Assembly: GCA_001799285.1 (NCBI GenBank)
Contig: MGTD01000013.1
Coordinates: 1 to 64,000, forward strand
Length of the DNA stretch: 64,000 bases
Reading direction: 5' to 3'
Origin: Deltaproteobacteria bacterium RIFOXYD12_FULL_56_24
GTDB taxonomy: Bacteria > Desulfobacterota > Desulfobulbia > Desulfobulbales > Desulfurivibrionaceae
The number at the start of each line of letters is the position of its first letter. Within the stretch, counting starts at the first letter, position 1. The translations under genes were made by a program, and so were the position numbers. Shown piece by piece: positions 34,467-58,948 of this stretch. The notes beneath the pieces were generated by a model. That model did no database searches, was not told the DNA's origin, and saw nothing but the letters and a program-made list of their open reading frames with translations.

Positions 34467-36470
34467 CTACAACCAGAGCAGCAGCAAGCATAGAGTCAGC
34501 GCCGAATAGAGCAGATAAACGCTGATCCAGCCCTGATGCAGAAAGGCGCGGACCGCAAAGGCATATCGGGATAAGTCCCGGCAGACCGGATGAAGCAGGC
34601 GGTCCAGAATCAGATCGGGGGTATGAGCGGCAAGGGTGGCCACGGCGGGGAAAAACCCGATGGCCCGGCCGCCGGCGATGTCGCTCCACAAACCCCAGTG
34701 GAAAAGGGAGACCAGCATCTCCGCAAAGGAAACCGCCGTATATTGCATGCGAGGGGTCCCCTCCCGGTAGCCGCAGCCCCAGGTCGTCGGCCGCTTTTCG
34801 CGGCCAGGCTCCGCAAAGGATTGCTGACGGGAAAAGAGGCCCAAAGAGAGTGCCAGCAGCAGAAAGGCGCAAAGGCTTAGCCAATATACCGGCGCCAGAC
34901 TGCCGAGCAGCAACCCCTCCGAATTCCCGGCCGAAGAGAGGGCTGCCGCCGCAAACCCCAGCCAGGCACCAACCGCCCGCTGCAGCAGGGGGACAATCGT
35001 CCAGGGCACCAGGCCGATTACCAGGCAGCAGAACAGGAGGGTGGCCATGGGCAAAAGCATGCTGCCCGGCGCCTCGCCGGGCGGAGCCGGAAATCGATGG
35101 CGCGGGGTGCCGAGAAAAGTAACGCCGAAGACCTTGACAAAACAGGCCACGGCCAGAGCCCCGGTCATGGCCAGGGCCGGGGCGGCCAGAATTGCCAGAG
35201 AGAGCGGGAAGGGGGCGCCTTCGGTCTGACTATGCAGCAGCCCCAAATAGATGAGCCATTCGCTGACAAAGCCGTTGAGCGGCGGCAGGCCGCAGATGGC
35301 CACGGCCCCGCCGAGAAAAAACAAGGCGGTGCGCGGCATCGAGCGCAGCAAGCCGCCGTAACGGTCGATCTCTCTGGTGCCGGTGGCCTGGATCACCGAA
35401 CCGGCTCCGAGAAAGAGCAGGGATTTGAACAGGCCGTGGTTGACCACATGGAGCAGAGCCCCGGCCAGGCCGAGGACGACCAGGGCAGGACTGTGGAAGG
35501 TTTTCCCCAGCAGGGCGCAACCCAGGCCGATCAGGATGATACCGATATTCTCCACACTGTGATAGGCGAGCAGCCGCTTGAGGTCATGCTGGGCCAGGGC
35601 AAACACCACCCCCATGATGGCCGAAATCACCCCGAGAACGAGAAGGCTCCCGCCCCACCAGGCCGGCTGGCCAGCGTAGAAACTGGTCAACCGGACCAGA
35701 CCGTAAATCCCCATCTTGATCACCACCCCGCTCATCAGGGCGGAAACATGGCTGGGCGCGGCGGCATGCGCCCCGGGCAGCCAGATATGGAGAGGCATGA
35801 TCCCGGCCTTGAGGCCAAAGCCGAAGAGGGCCAGGAGGAAAATCGCCCCGGCCTGAAAAGTGGCGCCGTCCAGGGTGGCGGCCTGGGGGAAATCAAAGCT
35901 GCTGCCGGGACCGGCCAAAAGAATGAACATGGCGAAAAGGGCCAGGGTGCCGGTGTGGGTAGCGGCAAGATAGACATAGGCGGCCCGGCGGGCCTCTTCT
36001 TTTTTCTGCTCGGTAAGGATCAGGAAAAAGCTGCCGATGGCCATGACCTCCCAGGCCATGAGGAAAAGAAGGCCGTTGCGGCTGACCGGCAGGAGGGCAA
36101 TGGATGCTCCCAGGATGCCGTAAAAAAAACGGAGCCTGCCCGCCGCCACGGAGTGCCGGGCCTGGGGAAAGTAGCCGAGCCCATAAATACCGCCCAGACC
36201 GAGGATGATCAGGGCCGGCAGCAGGAAGAGCGCGGCCAGCCCGTCCAGTTCGATGAGGAAATTACCGCCGGGGAGAGACCAGGGTATTGCCAGCAGGGGT
36301 GCGGGAGTTTGCCAGGCCCCGGCCAGCGAGGCGGCAAGGCCAAGAGTTGCACCGGTCAGCAAGAGGACAACGGAGAGGATTTCGCCGCTCCTTGCCAGCC
36401 GGCCCCAAGCCAGGGCGGGCAGCCCGGAACAGAAGATCAGGCTTACGGCGGCAAGATAGAACTCGGCCAA
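34467..36470 (-). CDS. Ehr complex antiporter-like subunit (HyfB/NuoL-like), distal copy
   Basis: A ~667-residue membrane protein with 14 or more helices, homologous to Mrp/NuoL proton-pumping subunits. Key segments are LFLMAWEVMAIGSFFLI (helix 5 Glu), FGFGLKAGIMPLHIWLPGAHAAAPSHVSALMSGVVIK (broken helix 7 with Lys), AYHSVENIGIILIG (helix 8 region) and LLRSMPRTALFFLGGAVAI. The TTG at 36470 is chosen, with GGGAGGA nine bases upstream; the longer ORF to 36545 would overlap the preceding gene by 60 bases. It is the last gene of the complex and a second HyfB-like copy with the gene at 42232. Confidence 0.85.
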   Translation of the reverse strand: MAEFYLAAVSLIFCSGLPALAWGRLARSGEILSVVLLLTGATLGLAASLAGAWQTPAPLLAIPWSLPGGNFLIELDGLAALFLLPALIILGLGGIYGLGYFPQARHSVAAGRLRFFYGILGASIALLPVSRNGLLFLMAWEVMAIGSFFLILTEQKKEEARRAAYVYLAATHTGTLALFAMFILLAGPGSSFDFPQAATLDGATFQAGAIFLLALFGFGLKAGIMPLHIWLPGAHAAAPSHVSALMSGVVIKMGIYGLVRLTSFYAGQPAWWGGSLLVLGVISAIMGVVFALAQHDLKRLLAYHSVENIGIILIGLGCALLGKTFHSPALVVLGLAGALLHVVNHGLFKSLLFLGAGSVIQATGTREIDRYGGLLRSMPRTALFFLGGAVAICGLPPLNGFVSEWLIYLGLLHSQTEGAPFPLSLAILAAPALAMTGALAVACFVKVFGVTFLGTPRHRFPAPPGEAPGSMLLPMATLLFCCLVIGLVPWTIVPLLQRAVGAWLGFAAAALSSAGNSEGLLLGSLAPVYWLSLCAFLLLALSLGLFSRQQSFAEPGREKRPTTWGCGYREGTPRMQYTAVSFAEMLVSLFHWGLWSDIAGGRAIGFFPAVATLAAHTPDLILDRLLHPVCRDLSRYAFAVRAFLHQGWISVYLLYSALTLCLLLLWL

Positions 36471-36484
36471 AATCTCTTCCTCCC

Positions 36485-37237
36485 TTATCTCCTGCCGAGC
36501 AAGCGCAGCAGGCCATCGAGAATGGTATAGGGATGCGGCGGACAACCCGGGATATATAGGTCAACCGGCAAAACGGGATCGAGCCCCGGAGCCGCCTCGC
36601 TGCTGTGCAGAAACGGCCCCCCGTTGATAGCGCAGGCCCCGGTGGCGATGACGATTTTCGGGGCCGGCATTGCCTCATAGGTGTCCAGCACCGCGCTGCG
36701 CATGTTTTCCGTGACCGGCCCGGTCAGGAGAATGCCGTCCGCGTGGCGGGGGGAGGCGACGAACTGGATGCCGAAGCGGCCCAAGTCGAAAACCAGGGTG
36801 CCGAGCACGTTGCAATCCGCCTCACAACCGTTGCAGCCGCCGGCGGAAACCTGGCGCAGCTTGAGGGAGCGGCCGAACAGCTTCAACCGAGCAGGCTCTA
36901 ACGGCTGGGCCAGGGGATATTCCCCGCCGCTGTACAGCAGATCCTCCCGCTTGCGGACCGCCAGACGATAGTCGCTGCCAAAGGTGATCCGACCGTGGGG
37001 GCAGGCCGGACAATCGGCGCAGAACAGGCAGCGGCCCAGATCAAGCTCCAATCGGCCGTCCACCTGCTTGCAGGCTCCGTAGGGGCACAAAGCCTCGCAG
37101 GCCCGGCTACAGTCGGACGGACAATCCCCGCCGAACCTGGGCAGCCCTCGGAAGCGCGGGGGAAGAACCGGCTCCTCTCTGGGGAATTTTCCCGTTCTGA
37201 ATCCCTGCCGCCACCGTTCCCGTATTATCTGCAGCAT
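36485..37237 (-). CDS. Ehr complex small subunit fused to a ferredoxin domain (HyfH-HyfI-like)
   Basis: A 250-residue fusion. The N-terminal half carries two cysteine groups, CPSDCSRACEALCPYGAC and CLFCADCPACPHG, for two [4Fe-4S] clusters as in HyfH/NuoI. The second half is NuoB/HyfI-like and keeps the four cysteines of the N2-type cluster: SAGGCNGCEADC (two), ATGACAINGG and IPGCPPHP. So the electron path to the quinone-like site is intact. In Hyf systems these are two separate genes. A ~200-base repeat separates it from the large-subunit gene. Confidence 0.88.
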   Translation of the reverse strand: MLQIIRERWRQGFRTGKFPREEPVLPPRFRGLPRFGGDCPSDCSRACEALCPYGACKQVDGRLELDLGRCLFCADCPACPHGRITFGSDYRLAVRKREDLLYSGGEYPLAQPLEPARLKLFGRSLKLRQVSAGGCNGCEADCNVLGTLVFDLGRFGIQFVASPRHADGILLTGPVTENMRSAVLDTYEAMPAPKIVIATGACAINGGPFLHSSEAAPGLDPVLPVDLYIPGCPPHPYTILDGLLRLLGRR

Positions 37238-37588: not shown

Positions 37589-39118
37589 CTACAAATCAAA
37601 CCCGCAGTACGACAAATTAAAACTCTTGTTACACAGGGGGAAATCGGAAATCTGCTCATCGCGCATCGCCATGGCCAACCCGCTCCAGTTATGAAAGGAG
37701 GGATCAACAATCTTGTAGCGCCGCAGACGGCCATCGCCGTCAGTGAGTCCGACATGCACCACCTCGCCCCGCCAGCCTTCCACCATGCCGATGGCCAGGG
37801 CATTACCCTTAAGCGGCCCGGTCGGCGCCCGGACTGGCCCGGCCGGCAGATTATCCATGATCCGCCGGAGCAGCTCGATGGAGACGGTGATCTCCCGGCT
37901 GCGCACCCTGGCTCGGGCCATGGCATCCCCAGTTTCCTCGGTGATCAGGTCATCGAACAGCTGACGGTAGACCCCGGTGGGATGGAAAAAGCGACTGTCG
38001 CGGGGCACGGCGCAGGCCTTGGCCGCCACCCCGACCAGCCCGAGATCCTCGGCCACCGAACGGGACAGGCGGCCTCGCCCCTCAAACCGCCCCATAACCG
38101 AAGGCGCGTCAAAAAATAGCTCCAGGGCGCCCAGGGTATTGCCTTCGACGGCCGCAAGCCGGGCCAGCATTTCTCCGGCCAACTCCGGGGCAAGATCAAA
38201 GAGTACCCCGCCCGGCCGCACCATCCCCCGGCCGAAACGGCTGCCGCACAGGGCGGCGGTCAGATTGAGGTAGTCGCCGCGCAACCGGCCGCAATAGGCG
38301 GAAGTGGGCAGAAAACCGACATCGCCGGCCAGGGCGCCGATATCGCCGACATGATTGGCCAGCCGTTCCAGTTCCAGGGCCAGGGCGCGAATGGCCTGGG
38401 CCCTGGCCGGAACCTCGCAGCCGCTCAAGGCCTCAAGCACCTGGCAGTGGGCCAACCCATGCCCGATGGTGGTGTCGCCGGCAATGGTTTCCATCTGGGC
38501 CATGGTGACCGGATGGGGGCCGCCCAGCAGCATCCGCTCGATATCCCGATGCTGGTAGCCAAGGGAGATCTCAAGATGCATCACCTTCTCGCCGTAACAC
38601 TGAAACCGGAAATGGCCCGGCTCGATGACCCCGGCATGGACCGGACCGACCGCCACCTCGTGCACCCCTTCGCCGTCCACCCGGTAAAACTCCATCTCGC
38701 CGATGCGGGGATGCTGATCCGTCTGGCGATTCCAGGCATCGTGCCCGGCCCGCCAGGAGCTATGAAAGCGGAGCGGCTTGAGCCAGGGATGCCCTTCCGG
38801 CACCACCCCGTACTGCTCGGCAATCTCCCGCTCGAAAAGATGCATCTGCGGGCAATTCGGAGTCAGGGAGGAAAACCGCTCACCGATGCTGGTTCGGTAC
38901 ACGGCGACAGAGGCGTTGCGATCCCGGGCGACCAGGGCGAAAATCTCCAGATCCCCGCCCACTTCCGCTGCGGGCACTCCAAAGCAGGCCGCTATCCGCC
39001 CCTGTTTGCGCACCTCCGCCAGCAGGCAATCGCTGAACTCAGCAAAATCGAGGATCGGCACCGACTCCAGGCCAACAGCCTCGCCGTTTTTCAGCAGTTG
39101 CGGATTCAGATTCTTCAT
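37589..39118 (-). CDS. Ehr complex large subunit (HyfG/NuoCD-like) without NiFe cysteines
   Basis: A 509-residue NuoC-NuoD type fusion: the N-terminal NuoC part ends with LFEREIAEQYGVVPEGHPWL, and the NuoD part contains GYQHRDIERMLLGG, ALELERLANHVGDIGALAGDVGF, FGRGMVRPGG. Where group-4 hydrogenases have the N-terminal CxxC (RVCGIC), this reads GDTTIGHGLAHCQ. Where they have the C-terminal CxxC (DPCxxC), this reads FPLCNKSFNLSYCGFDL, not in CxxC spacing. It therefore cannot bind a NiFe centre in the known way. That is the mark of energy-converting hydrogenase-related (Ehr) complexes known from Geobacter and relatives. It may carry a quinone-like site instead. It overlaps the HyfF-like gene by four bases. 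Confidence 0.88.
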   Translation of the reverse strand: MKNLNPQLLKNGEAVGLESVPILDFAEFSDCLLAEVRKQGRIAACFGVPAAEVGGDLEIFALVARDRNASVAVYRTSIGERFSSLTPNCPQMHLFEREIAEQYGVVPEGHPWLKPLRFHSSWRAGHDAWNRQTDQHPRIGEMEFYRVDGEGVHEVAVGPVHAGVIEPGHFRFQCYGEKVMHLEISLGYQHRDIERMLLGGPHPVTMAQMETIAGDTTIGHGLAHCQVLEALSGCEVPARAQAIRALALELERLANHVGDIGALAGDVGFLPTSAYCGRLRGDYLNLTAALCGSRFGRGMVRPGGVLFDLAPELAGEMLARLAAVEGNTLGALELFFDAPSVMGRFEGRGRLSRSVAEDLGLVGVAAKACAVPRDSRFFHPTGVYRQLFDDLITEETGDAMARARVRSREITVSIELLRRIMDNLPAGPVRAPTGPLKGNALAIGMVEGWRGEVVHVGLTDGDGRLRRYKIVDPSFHNWSGLAMAMRDEQISDFPLCNKSFNLSYCGFDL

Positions 39119-40557
39119 GGCTTCACCTCCAGCAGGGCGGCCGCTTCGGCAAAAAGCTTTCTGGCCGGTTCGGGCAGGTAGAGCCCCAGGAGCAAAATAA
39201 TGAGAAGCAGGACCAGCGGCGTCCCGGTGGTCACCAAAGTTTCCCGGTAATTGGTGTCTCCTTTCCGCTCCGTCGGCGTGCCGAAAACCACCGAGAGCAC
39301 CGTGCTGCCCATGCCGATGAAAATTACGGCCAGAAAGAAGAGGAAGAGACCGCCGGTCAGATAATGACCGCCGGTGAAGATGCCTCGGAGAATGGTAAAT
39401 TCGCTGATAAACGGTCCAAAAGGCGGCGAGCCGGTAATCGCCAGAAAGCCCAGGAGAAACAGGGTGGCGGAAACCGGCACCAGGGTGATGGCGCCCTGGA
39501 CCTCGCCCACCCGCTTGCTGGCGAAACGGCGATGGATGTTGCCGGCGGAGAGAAAAAGCACCCCCTTGGTCAAAGCATTGTTCATCAGATGCAGCATGGC
39601 CCCGAAGGTGGCGACTCCGCCGATGGCAACACCGATGGCAAGAATCCCCATGTGCTCGACGCTGGAATAGGCGAGCAGCCTTTTAAAATCCGGCTGCCGG
39701 ATGACAAACACCGCGGCAAAGCCGAGGGAGACCAACCCCATGACCAGAAAGGCCTCCCGGGCCATGGCCCCGTCGCCTGCCGCATCCATGATCTGCAGGG
39801 TGCGGAGCAAGGCGAGAAAGGCCACACTGGTAAGCCCCCCGGCCAGAAGCGCGCCGACCACCCCCGGCGCCTCGCCGTAGGCATCCGGTTTCCAGGTGTG
39901 CAGGGGGGCAAAGCCGGCCTTGGTGCCAAAGCCGACGAGCAGAAAGACAAAACCGGCCCTAAGCCACGGAGCAGAATAATTTGCCGCTCCCTGCAAAATA
40001 TCGTCAAGCTGGAGGCTGACCTGCGCGCTGCCGGCCAGGGCGGCGTAGGCGACAAAAAGGATGCCGAGCATGGCTAGGGCAATACCGACGGAGCAAAGAA
40101 TCAGGTATTTCCAGGTCGCCTCGATGGAGAGGCGGTTGCGATTGTAATAGATAAGCGGGGCGCTGGCCACGGTGGTCGCCTCCACCGCCACCCAGAGAAG
40201 GCCGAGATGCCGGGCCATGGCCGCCAGACTCATGGCGGAAAGAAACAGGAGCAGACAGCTGACAAAGATCCTGTTTCCCCAGGCGATCCGGTAGCGCAGG
40301 TAGCCGACGGCATAAAACGAACAGCCGCAGAAAAGCAGGCTGACGATGAGCAGAATGAGGCGACTTAAGGGATCAACCCCGATCCAGTTGCCGGCCATGG
40401 ACAAATGTACAGCCGGCCCGCCCTGGATGACCAAAAAGGTCAGCACCAGATGGGCCAGGCCGCAGACCGGCAGCAGCAGCGGGCGGAACCGGTCCGAGGG
40501 AAGACAGAAAGCGGCAAGGCCGCCTAGTAAGGGCAAGAGGAGAAGCGCGGCTATCAT
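39115..40557 (-). CDS. Ehr complex antiporter-like subunit (HyfF/NuoN-like)
   Basis: A 480-residue membrane protein with about 14 helices. MARHLGLLWVAVEATTVASAPLIYY holds the helix-5 Glu; LVGFGTKAGFAPLHTWKPDAYGEAPGVVGALLAGGLTSVAF is the broken helix 7 with its Lys; RLLAYSSVEHMGILAIGVAIG and MHLMNNALTKGVLFLSAGNIHRRF are typical of HyfF/NuoN. It would be one of three proton or sodium pumps in the complex. It is directly adjacent to the HyfE-like gene (one base) and overlaps the large subunit. Confidence 0.88.
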   Translation of the reverse strand: MIAALLLLPLLGGLAAFCLPSDRFRPLLLPVCGLAHLVLTFLVIQGGPAVHLSMAGNWIGVDPLSRLILLIVSLLFCGCSFYAVGYLRYRIAWGNRIFVSCLLLFLSAMSLAAMARHLGLLWVAVEATTVASAPLIYYNRNRLSIEATWKYLILCSVGIALAMLGILFVAYAALAGSAQVSLQLDDILQGAANYSAPWLRAGFVFLLVGFGTKAGFAPLHTWKPDAYGEAPGVVGALLAGGLTSVAFLALLRTLQIMDAAGDGAMAREAFLVMGLVSLGFAAVFVIRQPDFKRLLAYSSVEHMGILAIGVAIGGVATFGAMLHLMNNALTKGVLFLSAGNIHRRFASKRVGEVQGAITLVPVSATLFLLGFLAITGSPPFGPFISEFTILRGIFTGGHYLTGGLFLFFLAVIFIGMGSTVLSVVFGTPTERKGDTNYRETLVTTGTPLVLLLIILLLGLYLPEPARKLFAEAAALLEVKP

Positions 40558-40558
40558 G

Positions 40559-41203
40559 TTATTCCCTCAAGGAAGAAAGCTGACCGATGTTCATGCTGGA
40601 AAATTCCCGGTTGATCTGGTGCATGACAATACCCATGACAAAAACCGCGACCAGCAGGTCGAGGAGCACCCCGGCTTCCACCATCAGGGGCATGGCCTCG
40701 GCCAGCAGCATGCCGAAAATGAAAACCCCGTTTTCAAAAATCAGGTAGCCGAGAGCCTGGGTGATGGCCTTGCGCCGGGTAATAAGCATGAGAAAACCGG
40801 TGGCCAGGGTGGCCAGGCCGACCGGGATAAAAAGCGAGCCGTGATGCACCTCGATAAGCGGCAGCCGGTCGCTGAAGATAAACGCCCCGGCCGTGGCCAG
40901 GGTGCCGAGGAGCAGGGTCGGGACATAACCGATCAACGGCTCCATCTCCCTCTTGATTTGTACCTGGCGGATAGCCCTGAGCAACAGAAAAGGGATGGCC
41001 AGCCCTTTGAGCAGGAACGCTCCCCCGGCCAGAATCAGGGAATGGCCGGAAAACCCGTGGAGAAAAAGGGGCAGCAGCGAGAGGATACCTCCCTGGATGG
41101 CCACGGTCCTGATGCAGGCGCCCAGGCGGCTGCTCCCCAGCAAAAAGAAGTTGAAGAGGATGACCAGCAGCAGCAGCAGATTGGCGGGGTTGTAGTTGTC
41201 CAT
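40559..41203 (-). CDS. Ehr complex membrane subunit HyfE-like
   Basis: A 214-residue protein with six to seven helices matching HyfE: NLLLLLVILFNFFLLGSSRLG at the start, TRRKAITQALGYLIFENGVFIFGMLLAEAMPLMVEAGVLLD in the middle and VFVMGIVMHQINREFSSMNI near the end. HyfE is distantly related to the NuoK/MrpC fold. It is seven bases downstream of the HyfC-like gene. Confidence 0.85.
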   Translation of the reverse strand: MDNYNPANLLLLLVILFNFFLLGSSRLGACIRTVAIQGGILSLLPLFLHGFSGHSLILAGGAFLLKGLAIPFLLLRAIRQVQIKREMEPLIGYVPTLLLGTLATAGAFIFSDRLPLIEVHHGSLFIPVGLATLATGFLMLITRRKAITQALGYLIFENGVFIFGMLLAEAMPLMVEAGVLLDLLVAVFVMGIVMHQINREFSSMNIGQLSSLRE

Positions 41204-41210
41204 TATTTCC

Positions 41211-42122
41211 TTACCTTAAGAGCAGGATCAGCGAGAAAAACGAAAGCAGCATGGTGCCGACCAGCAGCTGGGGCACCCTCAGCAGCCGCAGCCGCGCCAT
41301 GGTTGATTCGACCACCCCGATGACCACGGCCAGAAGCAGCATCCCGCCACAAAACAGGAGAGTATCGAAAAGCACATCCCCGGTTGTGCCGGGAAACACG
41401 AGACGAACGACTAGGGCGCCCAAGACAAAGAGCTTCATGGCCGCGCCGTAGAGAATCATCCCGAAATCGGGGCCGCTGTGATCGAGCACCATCACCTCAT
41501 GGATCATGGTCAGCTCCAGATGGGTATTGGGGTCGTCAAAGGGGATGCGGCAATTTTCCACCAGGACCACGACAAACAGGCAGGCCACAACCAGAATCAA
41601 GGAAGGGCCGGCGCTTTGCCAGGCCGTATTCAGGACCGAGCCGAACATGGTACTAAGAACGAGAGAGCCGGAAAGCCGGGCCAGCACGATGAAGCAGAAA
41701 AAAACCGTCGGCTCGGCCAGGCAGGAAAAAGTGACCTCCCGGGCCGCGCCCATACCCTCAAAGGAAGAGCCGGTGTCCAGGGCCGCTGCGGCGGTAAAGA
41801 AACGGGACAGCCCGAAGAGATAGACAAAGAAGATCAGGTCGCCGGTAAAGGAAAGGGGCGCGCCGATGGCGCCAAAAGGAACCAGGAGCGAGGCAAGCAC
41901 CGGCACGGCAAGAGCCAGCACTGGCCCAGCCCGAAAAACCCAGGTGGTGGTGCGGCTGATGACCAGCCCCTTACCGAACAGCTTCCAGATATCGTAATAG
42001 GACTGCAAAAACGGCGGGCCGGTCCGCCCGGCAAAAAGGGCCTTGGTTTTGCCGATCACCCCGGACAACAGAGGGGAAAGGCCGAAGAGCAGGAGAAGGT
42101 GCAGGAACAGTTCGAGCATCAC
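41211..42122 (-). CDS. Ehr complex membrane anchor HyfC/NuoH-like
   Basis: A 303-residue, eight-helix protein of the NuoH/HyfC family that links the peripheral arm to the membrane arm. GRTGPPFLQSYYDIWKLFGKG is the conserved first loop; MGAAREVTFSCLAEPTVFF, NTHLELTMIHEVMVLDHSGPDF hold the acidic residues that line the entry chamber. In the 109-base gap after the HyfB-like gene there are AT-rich imperfect repeats (ATTCTCCATTTTTCACTTTCC and relatives). Confidence 0.88.
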   Translation of the reverse strand: MMLELFLHLLLLFGLSPLLSGVIGKTKALFAGRTGPPFLQSYYDIWKLFGKGLVISRTTTWVFRAGPVLALAVPVLASLLVPFGAIGAPLSFTGDLIFFVYLFGLSRFFTAAAALDTGSSFEGMGAAREVTFSCLAEPTVFFCFIVLARLSGSLVLSTMFGSVLNTAWQSAGPSLILVVACLFVVVLVENCRIPFDDPNTHLELTMIHEVMVLDHSGPDFGMILYGAAMKLFVLGALVVRLVFPGTTGDVLFDTLLFCGGMLLLAVVIGVVESTMARLRLLRVPQLLVGTMLLSFFSLILLLR

Positions 42123-42231: not shown

Positions 42232-44325
42232 CTAGCGTTGCCCCACCCAAAAAAGCAGCAGAATAGTGGCACTGAAAATATAGAGCAGATAGACATGCAA
42301 TTGTCCCGCCTGCAGGCCGCGAAAACCGCTGCAAACATCAGCCGCCCATCGGAAAAAAGGCCGGAACACTCTCTCCAGCACCGGGTCCGGCGCCTCAAAG
42401 GAAAAGCATTTCGCCTCCGGGAAAAACCCGATGGTCCGGCCATCTTCGGTTGAAGGGTTCATGCAGCTGCAAAACATGGCACTCTGGGGAAGCTCGGTAT
42501 AACTTTCCGCGGTGTAGGACATCCGGCTGGTGGGGAAGGCAAAACCGCAGCCCCAGGTAGCGGCGGCCGGTACAGGGTCGCCCCCTTGCCGCCAGCGGAG
42601 AAAGCCGTACGCCGCCAGAATACAGCCAAGCAGCAGAACCGCCATGAGCCCCAGCCACCACGGGGCAAAAGCCGTGTCGGCCAGCATGGTCGCCGCCCCC
42701 GGATCAAGCATGGTTGCGGCCCTCCCCGCCACCTGCAGGAGAAGAGCCGGCATGAGACCTCCCCCCAAACAGAGCAGAGCCAGGGCCGCCATGGCGCTCC
42801 CCATGGGCCAGCCAGCCTCATGGGCCTTGGCGGCCTCCGGGCTGCGCGGCTCCCCGGCCAGGGCGATGCCGATGATCCTGGTCATGACGATCAGCACCAT
42901 GCCGCCCACCAGGGCCAACAGCCCGATGAGTACCAGGGGGAAAAACCCGGCCAGACCGGAGAGCGCCGTGCCGCTCTCGAGCAGGGCGCGGTAGATGAAC
43001 CATTCGCCGATCAAGCCATTAAAGGGCGGCAGCGCACTGATTGCCAGGCCGCCGCAGACAATGAGCAGGCCGGTTACGGGCATGCGGCGCATGAGGCCGC
43101 CCATCCGGTTGAGATCCCGGCTGCCGCTGCCGTGCATCAGCGAACCGGCTCCCATGAAAAGCAGGCTCTTGAACAGGGCGTGGTTGAGCAGATGGATCAG
43201 CCCCCCGGCCAGGGCAAAGGCCGCGGCCACATGATGCCCGGCAGCCCGGCTCTGCATCCAGAAACCCAGGGCCAGCAGGATGAGGCCGATGTTTTCCACG
43301 GTGGAATAGGCCAGGCTCCTTTTCACATCCCGTTGCAGGGCGGCCATGGCGATGCCGAACAGGGCGCCGATAATGCCGATGCCCATCAACAAACCGCCCC
43401 ACCAGGCCGGCCCGGTGGGCAGAAAGGAATACAACCGGAGCAGCCCGTAAATGGCGGTCTTCACCATGACCCCGCTCATGAGCGCGGAAACATGGCTGGG
43501 CGCGGCCGGATGCGCATCAGGCAGCCAGACATGAAACGGGAAGATGCCGGCCTTGCTGCCGAAGCCGATCAGCAGCAGGAGAAAAAGCGCGGAAGCCGCC
43601 GGGAGCGAAAGCTGGCCGAGCGCCTGAAAAGAGGCAAATTCCAGACTGCCGGAAAGAGCTTGGGCGGAAAGAAAAAAAGCAAAAAGAAAGGCGGCGCCGA
43701 GATGGGTGGCGAGCAGATAGGTCCAGCCGGCCTCCACCGCTTCCGCCAGATCGTACTCACTGATCACCAGGAAAAAGGAGGTCAGCGACATGCACTCCCA
43801 GGCAAAAAGAAACAGCAGGCCGTTGGCTGCGGTAACCACCAGGGTCATGGAGAGGATGAGCAGGTTATACCAGGTCCAGTGCAGCCCCGGTCGACGCCGC
43901 TCTTTGCTGCCCTTCATGTATTGTTGAAATCGCAAAAAGCCGCGATTACAACGGTTATTGCTTTGTGACTCGTTTAATTCTGGTTGCGGACCTGTGGCCT
44001 TTTTCGTTTTTCCCAAATCCTTCATGTATTCAGCCCCGTAGAGCGCCCCGGCCAGGCCGACGATAAAGAGGGGAAGGAGAAAAAAGGCGGAGAGCTCGTC
44101 CAACCGCAGGGAAAACGCCCCGCCCGGCATGGACCAGGGCATAAAAAATGCCTCCGCCCCTCCGCCAAGCAACCTCTGCCCTGCCGCGATCAGGCCGCAA
44201 AGGCAGCCGAGGATACCGCTGGCGCTGCCGAGGAGGGTAGCCGCTCTGGCGCCGGTGCGGCCTGGAATAACAGCCAGTAGCGCGCCAAGGCCGAAAAGAA
44301 AAAAGGCGGCAAAAAGAAAATTCAT
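42232..44325 (-). CDS. Ehr complex antiporter-like subunit (HyfB/NuoL-like), first copy, with in-frame repeat insertion
   Basis: A 697-residue Mrp/NuoL-like pump subunit, first structural gene of the complex. FLFAWECMSLTSFFLVISEYD, FGSKAGIFPFHVWLPDAHPAAPSHVSALMSGVMVKTAIYG and AYSTVENIGLILLALGF are the helix 5, 7 and 8 signatures. Between the early helices, a loop that is short in the paralog at 34467 is enlarged here by 36 codons (from KDLGKTK to RFQQYMK). These are encoded by a dispersed repeat flanked by the 12-base duplication AATACATGAAGG. The frame is kept. Its start overlaps the regulator gene stop as ATGA. Confidence 0.87.
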   Translation of the reverse strand: MNFLFAAFFLFGLGALLAVIPGRTGARAATLLGSASGILGCLCGLIAAGQRLLGGGAEAFFMPWSMPGGAFSLRLDELSAFFLLPLFIVGLAGALYGAEYMKDLGKTKKATGPQPELNESQSNNRCNRGFLRFQQYMKGSKERRRPGLHWTWYNLLILSMTLVVTAANGLLFLFAWECMSLTSFFLVISEYDLAEAVEAGWTYLLATHLGAAFLFAFFLSAQALSGSLEFASFQALGQLSLPAASALFLLLLIGFGSKAGIFPFHVWLPDAHPAAPSHVSALMSGVMVKTAIYGLLRLYSFLPTGPAWWGGLLMGIGIIGALFGIAMAALQRDVKRSLAYSTVENIGLILLALGFWMQSRAAGHHVAAAFALAGGLIHLLNHALFKSLLFMGAGSLMHGSGSRDLNRMGGLMRRMPVTGLLIVCGGLAISALPPFNGLIGEWFIYRALLESGTALSGLAGFFPLVLIGLLALVGGMVLIVMTRIIGIALAGEPRSPEAAKAHEAGWPMGSAMAALALLCLGGGLMPALLLQVAGRAATMLDPGAATMLADTAFAPWWLGLMAVLLLGCILAAYGFLRWRQGGDPVPAAATWGCGFAFPTSRMSYTAESYTELPQSAMFCSCMNPSTEDGRTIGFFPEAKCFSFEAPDPVLERVFRPFFRWAADVCSGFRGLQAGQLHVYLLYIFSATILLLFWVGQR
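43911..44030 (-). repeat. ~90-bp dispersed repeat inserted in frame within a HyfB-like gene, with 12-bp flanking duplication
   Basis: AATACATGAAGG (minus strand) occurs at 44030-44019 and again at 43922-43911, so the duplicated unit is 108 bp, a multiple of three. The insert shares ACAGGTCCG, ATAACCGTTGTAATCGCGGC and TTTTTGCGATTTCAACAA with copies at 48457-48547 and 58864-58948. TTGTAATCGC and GCGATTTCAA form a hairpin around GGCTTTTT. Confidence 0.8.
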
Positions 44326-45005
44326 GCGGAAAACCCCTGGTGAAAAAGCTGCGCTTCCTGGGCACCAATGAACTCAAGCAGCCTCTTGCGGGTCGGCTGC
44401 TCACGGATGCCGGCGAGAAAGGAGGCGGACATGGAAAGCCGCCACAGTTTGCGTTCTAGGATGGCCTGCTCGGTATTGTTGGCGGGCAGCAGCAGAAAAA
44501 GCAGCTCGGTCTTGCGCTTGTCCAGGGCCTTGAAATCCACCGGATGTTCGAGAAAAGCGAGGATCACCATGCTCTTTTCCGGATAAACCGGCAGGGCCGG
44601 ATCGGGCCACATCCAGGCAATGCCGTCCATGGAGGAGGAGGCCACCGACTCCCTGGCCAGCAGGGAAATCTTGATCGCCTTGGCGTCAAAGCTCGCGGAA
44701 TAGGGCTGGGCCGCCAGCAACTCGTCGATGATCTCGTCACGGTTGCTGCCGTGGATTCGGTAGAGGACCGCGCCGTTTTCCAGGGCGTCGACCAGGGAGA
44801 TGCGGTAATCCGTCTTGCCCCTTGGGGCAACGCCGGCTTTCTGGCTGTCGATCCAGTCCACCACCTCGTCGGCCCTGAAGCGCCACTGGCCGCCGATCTT
44901 GACGGCAAAGGGAATCTGGTTGTCGCCCACCATCCGGTAGATGGTCTTCTCGGAAACACCCAGCTTTTCCGCCACGCCTTTTATGGAGATAAATGTTTTA
45001 TCCAT
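44322..45005 (-). CDS. Excisionase/MerR-type HTH protein with PTS EIIA-like domain
   Basis: A 227-residue putative regulator. Residues 1-55 are a helix-turn-helix of the excisionase class (SIKGVAEKLGVSEKTIYRMVGDNQIPFAVKIGGQWRF). Residues ~80-227 resemble PTS IIA type 2 (fructose/nitrogen) domains: SLVDALENGAVLYRIHGSNRDEIIDELLAA, ILAFLEHPVDFKALDKRKTELLFLLLPANNTEQ. The phosphorylatable His of EIIA is not obvious. It leads the Ehr operon and overlaps the first structural gene by four bases, so it probably controls it. The start at 45005 puts the HTH at the N terminus; an earlier ATG (45074) would read through the promoter. Confidence 0.82.
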   Translation of the reverse strand: MDKTFISIKGVAEKLGVSEKTIYRMVGDNQIPFAVKIGGQWRFRADEVVDWIDSQKAGVAPRGKTDYRISLVDALENGAVLYRIHGSNRDEIIDELLAAQPYSASFDAKAIKISLLARESVASSSMDGIAWMWPDPALPVYPEKSMVILAFLEHPVDFKALDKRKTELLFLLLPANNTEQAILERKLWRLSMSASFLAGIREQPTRKRLLEFIGAQEAQLFHQGFSA

Positions 45006-45007
45006 CT

Positions 45008-45025
45008 TTGTCCAATATTGTCCAA
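45008..45025. promoter_or_regulatory. Direct-repeat operator candidate before the Ehr operon
   Basis: TTGTCCAATATTGTCCAA holds two identical TTGTCCAA boxes with a 10-base period, one helical turn, just before the regulator's start codon. It could be an autoregulatory site for the HTH protein. Confidence 0.45.
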
Positions 45026-45045
45026 ACTTGACTAAGAATGTACCC

Positions 45046-45074
45046 CATTTAAGCCGTTGACCAGGGGTTGTCAA
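45046..45074 (-). promoter_or_regulatory. Possible sigma-70 promoter of the Ehr operon
   Basis: On the minus strand a perfect TTGACA is followed after 17 bases by TAAATG, a weak -10 element. TTGAC and GTCAA around the -35 also form an inverted repeat. The transcript would cross the direct-repeat boxes. Confidence 0.4.
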
Positions 45075-48424: not shown

Positions 48425-48456
48425 TTCTCCCCAGGGAGCAACCCTGATGGTCTCGT

Positions 48457-48547
48457 AAAAAGAGAAAAAGGTTACAGGTCCGAGACACAAAATAAAAGGT
48501 TACGCAACGACAACCGTTGTAATCGCGGCTTTTTGCGATTTCAACAA
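48457..48547 (+). repeat. ~90-bp dispersed repeat in the cytochrome leader
   Basis: AAGGTTACAGGTCC, CCGTTGTAATCGCGGC and TTTTTGCGATTTCAACAA match the insertion in the HyfB-like gene (43911-44030) and the copy at 58864. It separates the duplicated leader from the cytochrome start; the second gene of the pair lacks it. Confidence 0.75.
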
Positions 48548-58839: not shown

Positions 58840-58863
58840 AAACTTTATGAACTCGCAACAACC

Positions 58864-58948
58864 TGAAAAGTTTACAGGCCCACCACACAAAATCAGACAG
58901 TTACGCATTAATACCCGTTGTAATCGTGGCTTTTTACGATTTCAACAA
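58864..58948 (+). repeat. ~90-bp dispersed repeat, third copy
   Basis: GAAAAGTTTACAGGCCC, ACCCGTTGTAATCGTGGC and TTTTTACGATTTCAACAA are the same blocks as at 48457-48547 and 43911-44030, with the hairpin core kept by paired changes (C to T, G to A). Confidence 0.7.

Follow-up and report, generated by a model that had tools for sequence, protein, structure and literature searches.

The 64,000-nucleotide stretch of DNA analyzed here (the window) contains a gene for a HyfB/HycC-like proton-pump subunit with a copy of a dispersed repeat inside its reading frame, which raises the question of how such a sequence could enter a conserved gene and leave it open. It is very likely that a MITE-like element transposed into this gene, that the frame was kept, and that the 36 additional residues are tolerated as neutral filler. 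The initial annotation had described a repeat of about 90 bp with two intergenic copies; both copies were recovered, while the length had to be revised to about 101–104 bp (Table 1). It had further claimed 12-base direct duplicates on both sides, a 108-base unit that adds 36 residues in frame, and a loop that is short in a paralog. The direct repeats proved to be exact, the ORF is intact and open throughout, including the whole inserted segment, and the loop of the paralog is short at the insertion point. The repeat was rightly described as a protein-coding insertion, in the sense of an open, in-frame part of a conserved gene.

Table 1. Features discussed in the text, with their positions in the window.
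Feature	Positions	Strand	Basis
HyfB/HycC-like proton-pump subunit gene, 697 aa, bearing the insertion	42232..44325	-	ORF; Pfam; fold match
Element copy in the hyfB-like gene, spanning model R1 completely (positions 1-104)	43921..44024	-	109.4 bits
5' direct repeat AATACATGAAGG (gene orientation), target duplication	44019..44030	-	single-copy empty site in G009, G001
3' direct repeat AATACATGAAGG (gene orientation), target duplication	43911..43922	-	exact match
Hairpin at the 3' terminus of the element, with 11 paired positions and one T-T mismatch in the hyfB copy	43923..43952	-	compensatory changes
Second element copy, intergenic per gene caller	48445..48547	+	
Third element copy, intergenic per gene caller	58845..58948	+	
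Paralogous proton-pump subunit, loop short at the insertion point	34467..36545	-	sequence, Pfam
Other complex genes: 49/30 kDa-like, hyfF-, hyfE-, and hyfC-like; open frames	37589..42122	-	

Domain content and fold both assign the product of the host gene to the HyfB/HycC-like subunits: Pfam detects Proton_antipo_M (1.1e-52) in addition to Proton_antipo_N, and the best solved Foldseek match is 7z0t_C, chain C of the E. coli formate hydrogenlyase (E 2.6e-27). No CxxC motif is found anywhere in the 49-kDa/HyfG-like subunit encoded in the same operon (37589-39118, minus strand), so that the complex may function as a proton pump related to hydrogenases and devoid of a NiFe site. The gene upstream of the hyfB-like gene (44322-45074, minus strand) encodes a helix-turn-helix domain (HTH_17) and a PTS EIIA-like domain, the latter just under the cut-off. 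In the relative G007, a further copy of the element (L043:7021-7124) separates the hyfE-like from the hyfF-like gene of this operon.

In gene orientation, the insert is bounded by two copies of the 12-mer AATACATGAAGG (forward-strand form CCTTCATGTATT) that are separated by 108 bp from start to start, equivalent to 36 codons. The protein encoded on the minus strand reads ...GALYGAEYMK DLGKTKKATGPQPELNESQSNNRCNRGFLRFQQYMK GSKERRRPG..., with DLGKTKKATGPQPELNESQSNNRCNRGFLRFQQYMK representing the 36 added residues and ATGPQPELNESQSNNR an example peptide from inside the insert. The element usually has GATGG/GAAGG at its 5' end, and the final five bases of the 12-mer match this start, so that the duplication at this site may comprise either 7 or 12 nt. 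The 5' end of this copy differs from the family consensus at five of 13 bases, from the GG on. According to the initial annotation, close homologues with the same 36 residues but no similarity to the repeat would have refuted its claim. These residues are present in none of the 25 homologue rows, which reduce to about 17 distinct sequences because eight genomes contribute two rows each. The nearest homologues, with about 88–90% identity outside the insert, align at residues 1-102 and 135-697. At the DNA level, G009 and G001 hold AATACATGAAGG just once, reading GAATACATGAAGGG, and the same empty site, with substitutions, is found in G007, G013, G014, and G011. By these alignments, the insertion is specific to the lineage of the analyzed genome (G000), and the allele may be rare because it is known from one draft genome of one species. 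As this draft consists of 67 contigs, a repeat misjoined into the gene during assembly or binning might be envisaged. Such an artefact is barely credible, given that the hyfB copy is unlike any other (the nearest is 86% identical among the matches listed), that an exact target duplication flanks it on both sides, and that relatives have the empty site.

With 109 bits against the family model, the inserted segment belongs to the repeat family far beyond chance. The element extends over about 101 bp from GATGG to TTTCAAC, and 74 matches at E<=0.001 were obtained in the 3.04 Mb of G000 with a model built from 30 copies, the weakest of these matches being partial or doubtful; a plain DNA search of the same genome gave at least 41 matches. 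The imperfect terminal inverted repeats of 17 bp (GATGGACTCGTAAAAAG / GTTGAAATCGCAAAAAG) are identical at 13 of 17 positions in the consensus (P about 5e-5 by shuffling), and GATGRACTCGYAAAAAG is an end-type sequence of the element. The target duplication usually comprises about 6 nt (AANNNT). With the 13 weakest copies left out, both here and in the length count given below, the flanking 6-mers are identical in 26 of 61 copies, compared to 2.6 for shuffled pairs, and agree at five of six bases in a further 20. Being short, non-coding, and multicopy, with terminal inverted repeats and target duplications, the element is MITE-like. Within the order, the model found matches in 35 of 58 genomes, among them every one of the 17 from the genus (G000 counted); distant families show far lower scores, retain the length of 104 positions, and contain some tandems about 107 bp apart. 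A tandem pair about 108 bp apart also occurs in G000 (L004; C41:25145 and 25253), and tandems of 106–107 bp are present in the distant genomes G024 and G029. The third copy of Table 1 and several others (L095, L097, L099) share their flanks, GAAACTT before and AAACTTATAC after the element, which suggests a longer composite repeat that was amplified with the element inside. No Rfam family matched the window at gathering thresholds, and no orientation bias of the copies relative to neighboring genes was evident.

The 3'-terminal hairpin was analyzed in a non-random set of 22 chosen sequences, comprising 10 of the genome's own copies with variation and 12 distant copies that came from a model already containing this hairpin. 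In this set, the hairpin covaries between families of the order: eight of 11 pairs show changes on both sides and 92% of cells pair. Slid or shuffled controls gave far lower values, with the exception of the number of further pair types, which was no higher than in shuffles, and covariation is weak inside the genus alone (2 of 12 pairs). In terms of sequence, the conservation of the family looks like that of a nucleic-acid structure and termini and not like that of a peptide. A second hairpin seen by eye in the 5' half (GGTCTCG...CGAGAC) is absent from some copies and was dropped.

The element would have entered the hyfB-like gene by transposition at AATACAT, thereby duplicating the target, and would presumably have been moved by an enzyme acting in trans. 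Near-exact element ends in G000 correspond to the known copies and a few solo ends. The latter include matches without a full copy at L130-L133 (G000:C42:43148, C7:63939, C18:25267, C40:18979), some of which may be ends of another, longer repeat family, and no transposase was recognized by eye among the ORFs beside four solo ends. A Y1/RAYT origin was rejected, as G000 contains three Y1 transposase genes and none of these loci has a copy of the element within the retrieved flanks.

The search for the repeat in other genes, also suggested in the initial annotation, identified the hyfB copy as the only one inside a gene of G000 and a single further credible orthologous case among the copies sampled from relatives. 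A hexamer-based gene caller, for which the window and homologue loci served as training data, placed 62 of the 74 G000 copies in intergenic regions, 11 at a gene end, and one inside a gene, although 84% of the window lies within called genes. Candidate coding copies at 12 other places in G000 were not credible as genes, either by eye or by the caller. The flanks of the copies contain 48% GC compared to 58% for the window, and the distribution of the copies fits a loss of frame-breaking insertions combined with a preference for AT-richer targets. For the relatives, the best-listed 80 of the genus copies were sampled: 47 are intergenic, 27 touch a gene end, and six were flagged as inside genes. 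In three of these six, the element lies upstream of a better start; by eye, the rejected frames are permease-like, transporter-like, and RuvA-like. The remaining three represent the single credible orthologous case, described below. At a separate locus (L136, G010:C340), a copy near 900-1004 of the locus is located between two genes that resemble ATPase subunits by eye. The open frame of this copy continues into the downstream gene and has an ATG preceded by AAGGAG, so that the element might supply an N-terminal extension to this gene.

A gene that carries such an insert could also be an early pseudogene, its frame open by luck and the pump inactivated or impaired. The insert is compositionally foreign, with 42% GC in a host gene of 62% GC, and, being present in G000 only, it is possibly too young for decay; the open frame of the copy may in part reflect a recent insertion. 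Loss of function is nonetheless quite unlikely. The frame was kept even though, among the 43 copies whose duplication is clear, only 10 add a length divisible by three, and even though 27 of the 65 best copies (nine of the 74 being left out) contain no open frame in any of six frames. Purifying selection acts on the hyfB-like gene (dN 0.063 and dS 0.472 vs G007, dN/dS about 0.13), which shows no excess of nonsynonymous change in G000 and evolves no faster there than in G007, G009, and G013, each compared with three other species. The other operon genes examined retain open frames. In addition, the insert is predicted to sit in a disordered or flexible loop between two transmembrane helices, and this loop differs in length among homologues. 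In the AlphaFold model (mean pLDDT 78, 20 sequences), the insert falls within a stretch with pLDDT<50 (residues 105-143) between helices 77-110 and 145-165; low values are expected anyway for an insert that has no aligned homologues.

An independent second case, in other species, provides an indication of how such inserts evolve. In the three species G011, G010, and G001 (L214, L215, L216), a gene for a small hydrophobic protein that gave no Pfam match contains 36 element-derived residues after codon 3, so that the protein reads M-Q-R/K, followed by the 36 residues (MMDPQKGKKATSPQHEIEEFPSDNCCNRGLLRFQQR in G011) and IREQISL..., whereas insert-free genomes read, for example, MQKIREQ. The element is read in the same frame as in hyfB. 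A fourth species, G012 (L221), retains an in-frame, internally deleted remnant, MQEMMDSQKKEKISGSLPQK. Pairwise nonsynonymous/synonymous differences within the insert amount to 6/2, 10/1, and 6/1 in three comparisons that are non-independent and cover only 36 codons, and dN/dS for the rest of the gene is about 0.26–0.5. The second insert therefore appears to evolve about neutrally within an otherwise constrained gene; such inserts keep an open frame and are tolerated, with no apparent constraint on their sequence. In a poorly supported gene tree, the four carriers are not grouped, which does not favor a simple single gain; the history may involve one gain with losses, or transfer.

The existence of two independent in-frame inserts of exactly 36 residues, in the same element frame and both in hydrophobic proteins, could be taken as a sign that HyfB retained the residues for some benefit, such as a new contact or a regulatory loop. 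This is very improbable in view of a dN about equal to or above dS in the second insert, the deleted remnant in G012, the absence of predicted structure for the hyfB insert, and its restriction to one lineage, with no homologue sharing it. Judged by the parallel case, the hyfB insert is more probably neutral filler than the carrier of a new function. A more far-reaching, though unlikely, idea derives from an element subfamily in which CTCGC replaces CTCGTAA. Its frame is open and, together with a 7-nt duplication, contributes exactly 36 residues of polar, basic character. On this idea, the element may act as a portable module, a loop or linker compatible with the frame, that is added time and again to membrane proteins of the order, its coding compatibility itself being maintained.

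For the insertion of a MITE-like element as neutral filler, the sequence of events would be as follows. The hyfB-like gene stayed unbroken after transposition because the copy adds 108 bp and its frame contains no stop, translation should turn the element into 36 additional residues, and these would be tolerated in the flexible inter-helix loop, with neutrality at hyfB extrapolated from the other locus. The case offers a natural experiment on the amount of foreign sequence that can be tolerated by an energy-converting membrane complex. An empty-site control accompanies it, and the independent second case is open to selection tests.

Word searches of open-licence papers found no paper on this element family, which is new as far as these searches reach; the behavior that it displays, at low frequency, is known from other elements. 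It is established that small palindromic elements can insert in frame, with Rickettsia RPEs, ERIC, Correia/NEMIS, and Coxiella QMITEs as examples (PMC2229807, PMC5896051, PMC10969869). The element resembles GTAG/CGTC REP sequences (PMC3733652) in being palindromic, intergenic, and at times located within ORFs. However, these are defined as RAYT-linked palindromes of 20–40 bp with a tetranucleotide tag, whereas the unit described here comprises 104 bp, generates target duplications, and has no copy within the retrieved flanks of the three Y1 transposase loci. With bacterial MITEs such as ERIC, Correia/NEMIS, and QMITE1/2 of Coxiella, it shares short length, multiple copies, terminal inverted repeats, and target duplication, together with a mostly intergenic location and occasional in-frame fusions. 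It differs from them in that its 17-bp termini are imperfect and that one end alone has an additional, covarying hairpin; the search through near-exact ends recognized no parent transposon. RPEs are described as palindromic dispersed repeats of about 100–150 bp that lie in frame in conserved genes, add a few dozen residues, and are apparently neutral (PMC2229807, PMC10969869); almost half of them are stated to be located within genes (PMC10969869), and their target duplication is given as “?” (PMC2229807). In contrast to this prevalence of in-frame copies, only one of the 74 copies in G000 and one credible orthologous case in relatives fall inside genes; the target duplication is visible here, and the host belongs to another bacterial group. 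The likeness to RPEs is one of effect: a small dispersed repeat lies in frame within a conserved gene, with an apparently neutral outcome. With this case, the RPE-like acquisition of a mobile repeat, in frame, by a conserved gene extends to Desulfobulbaceae-like bacteria.
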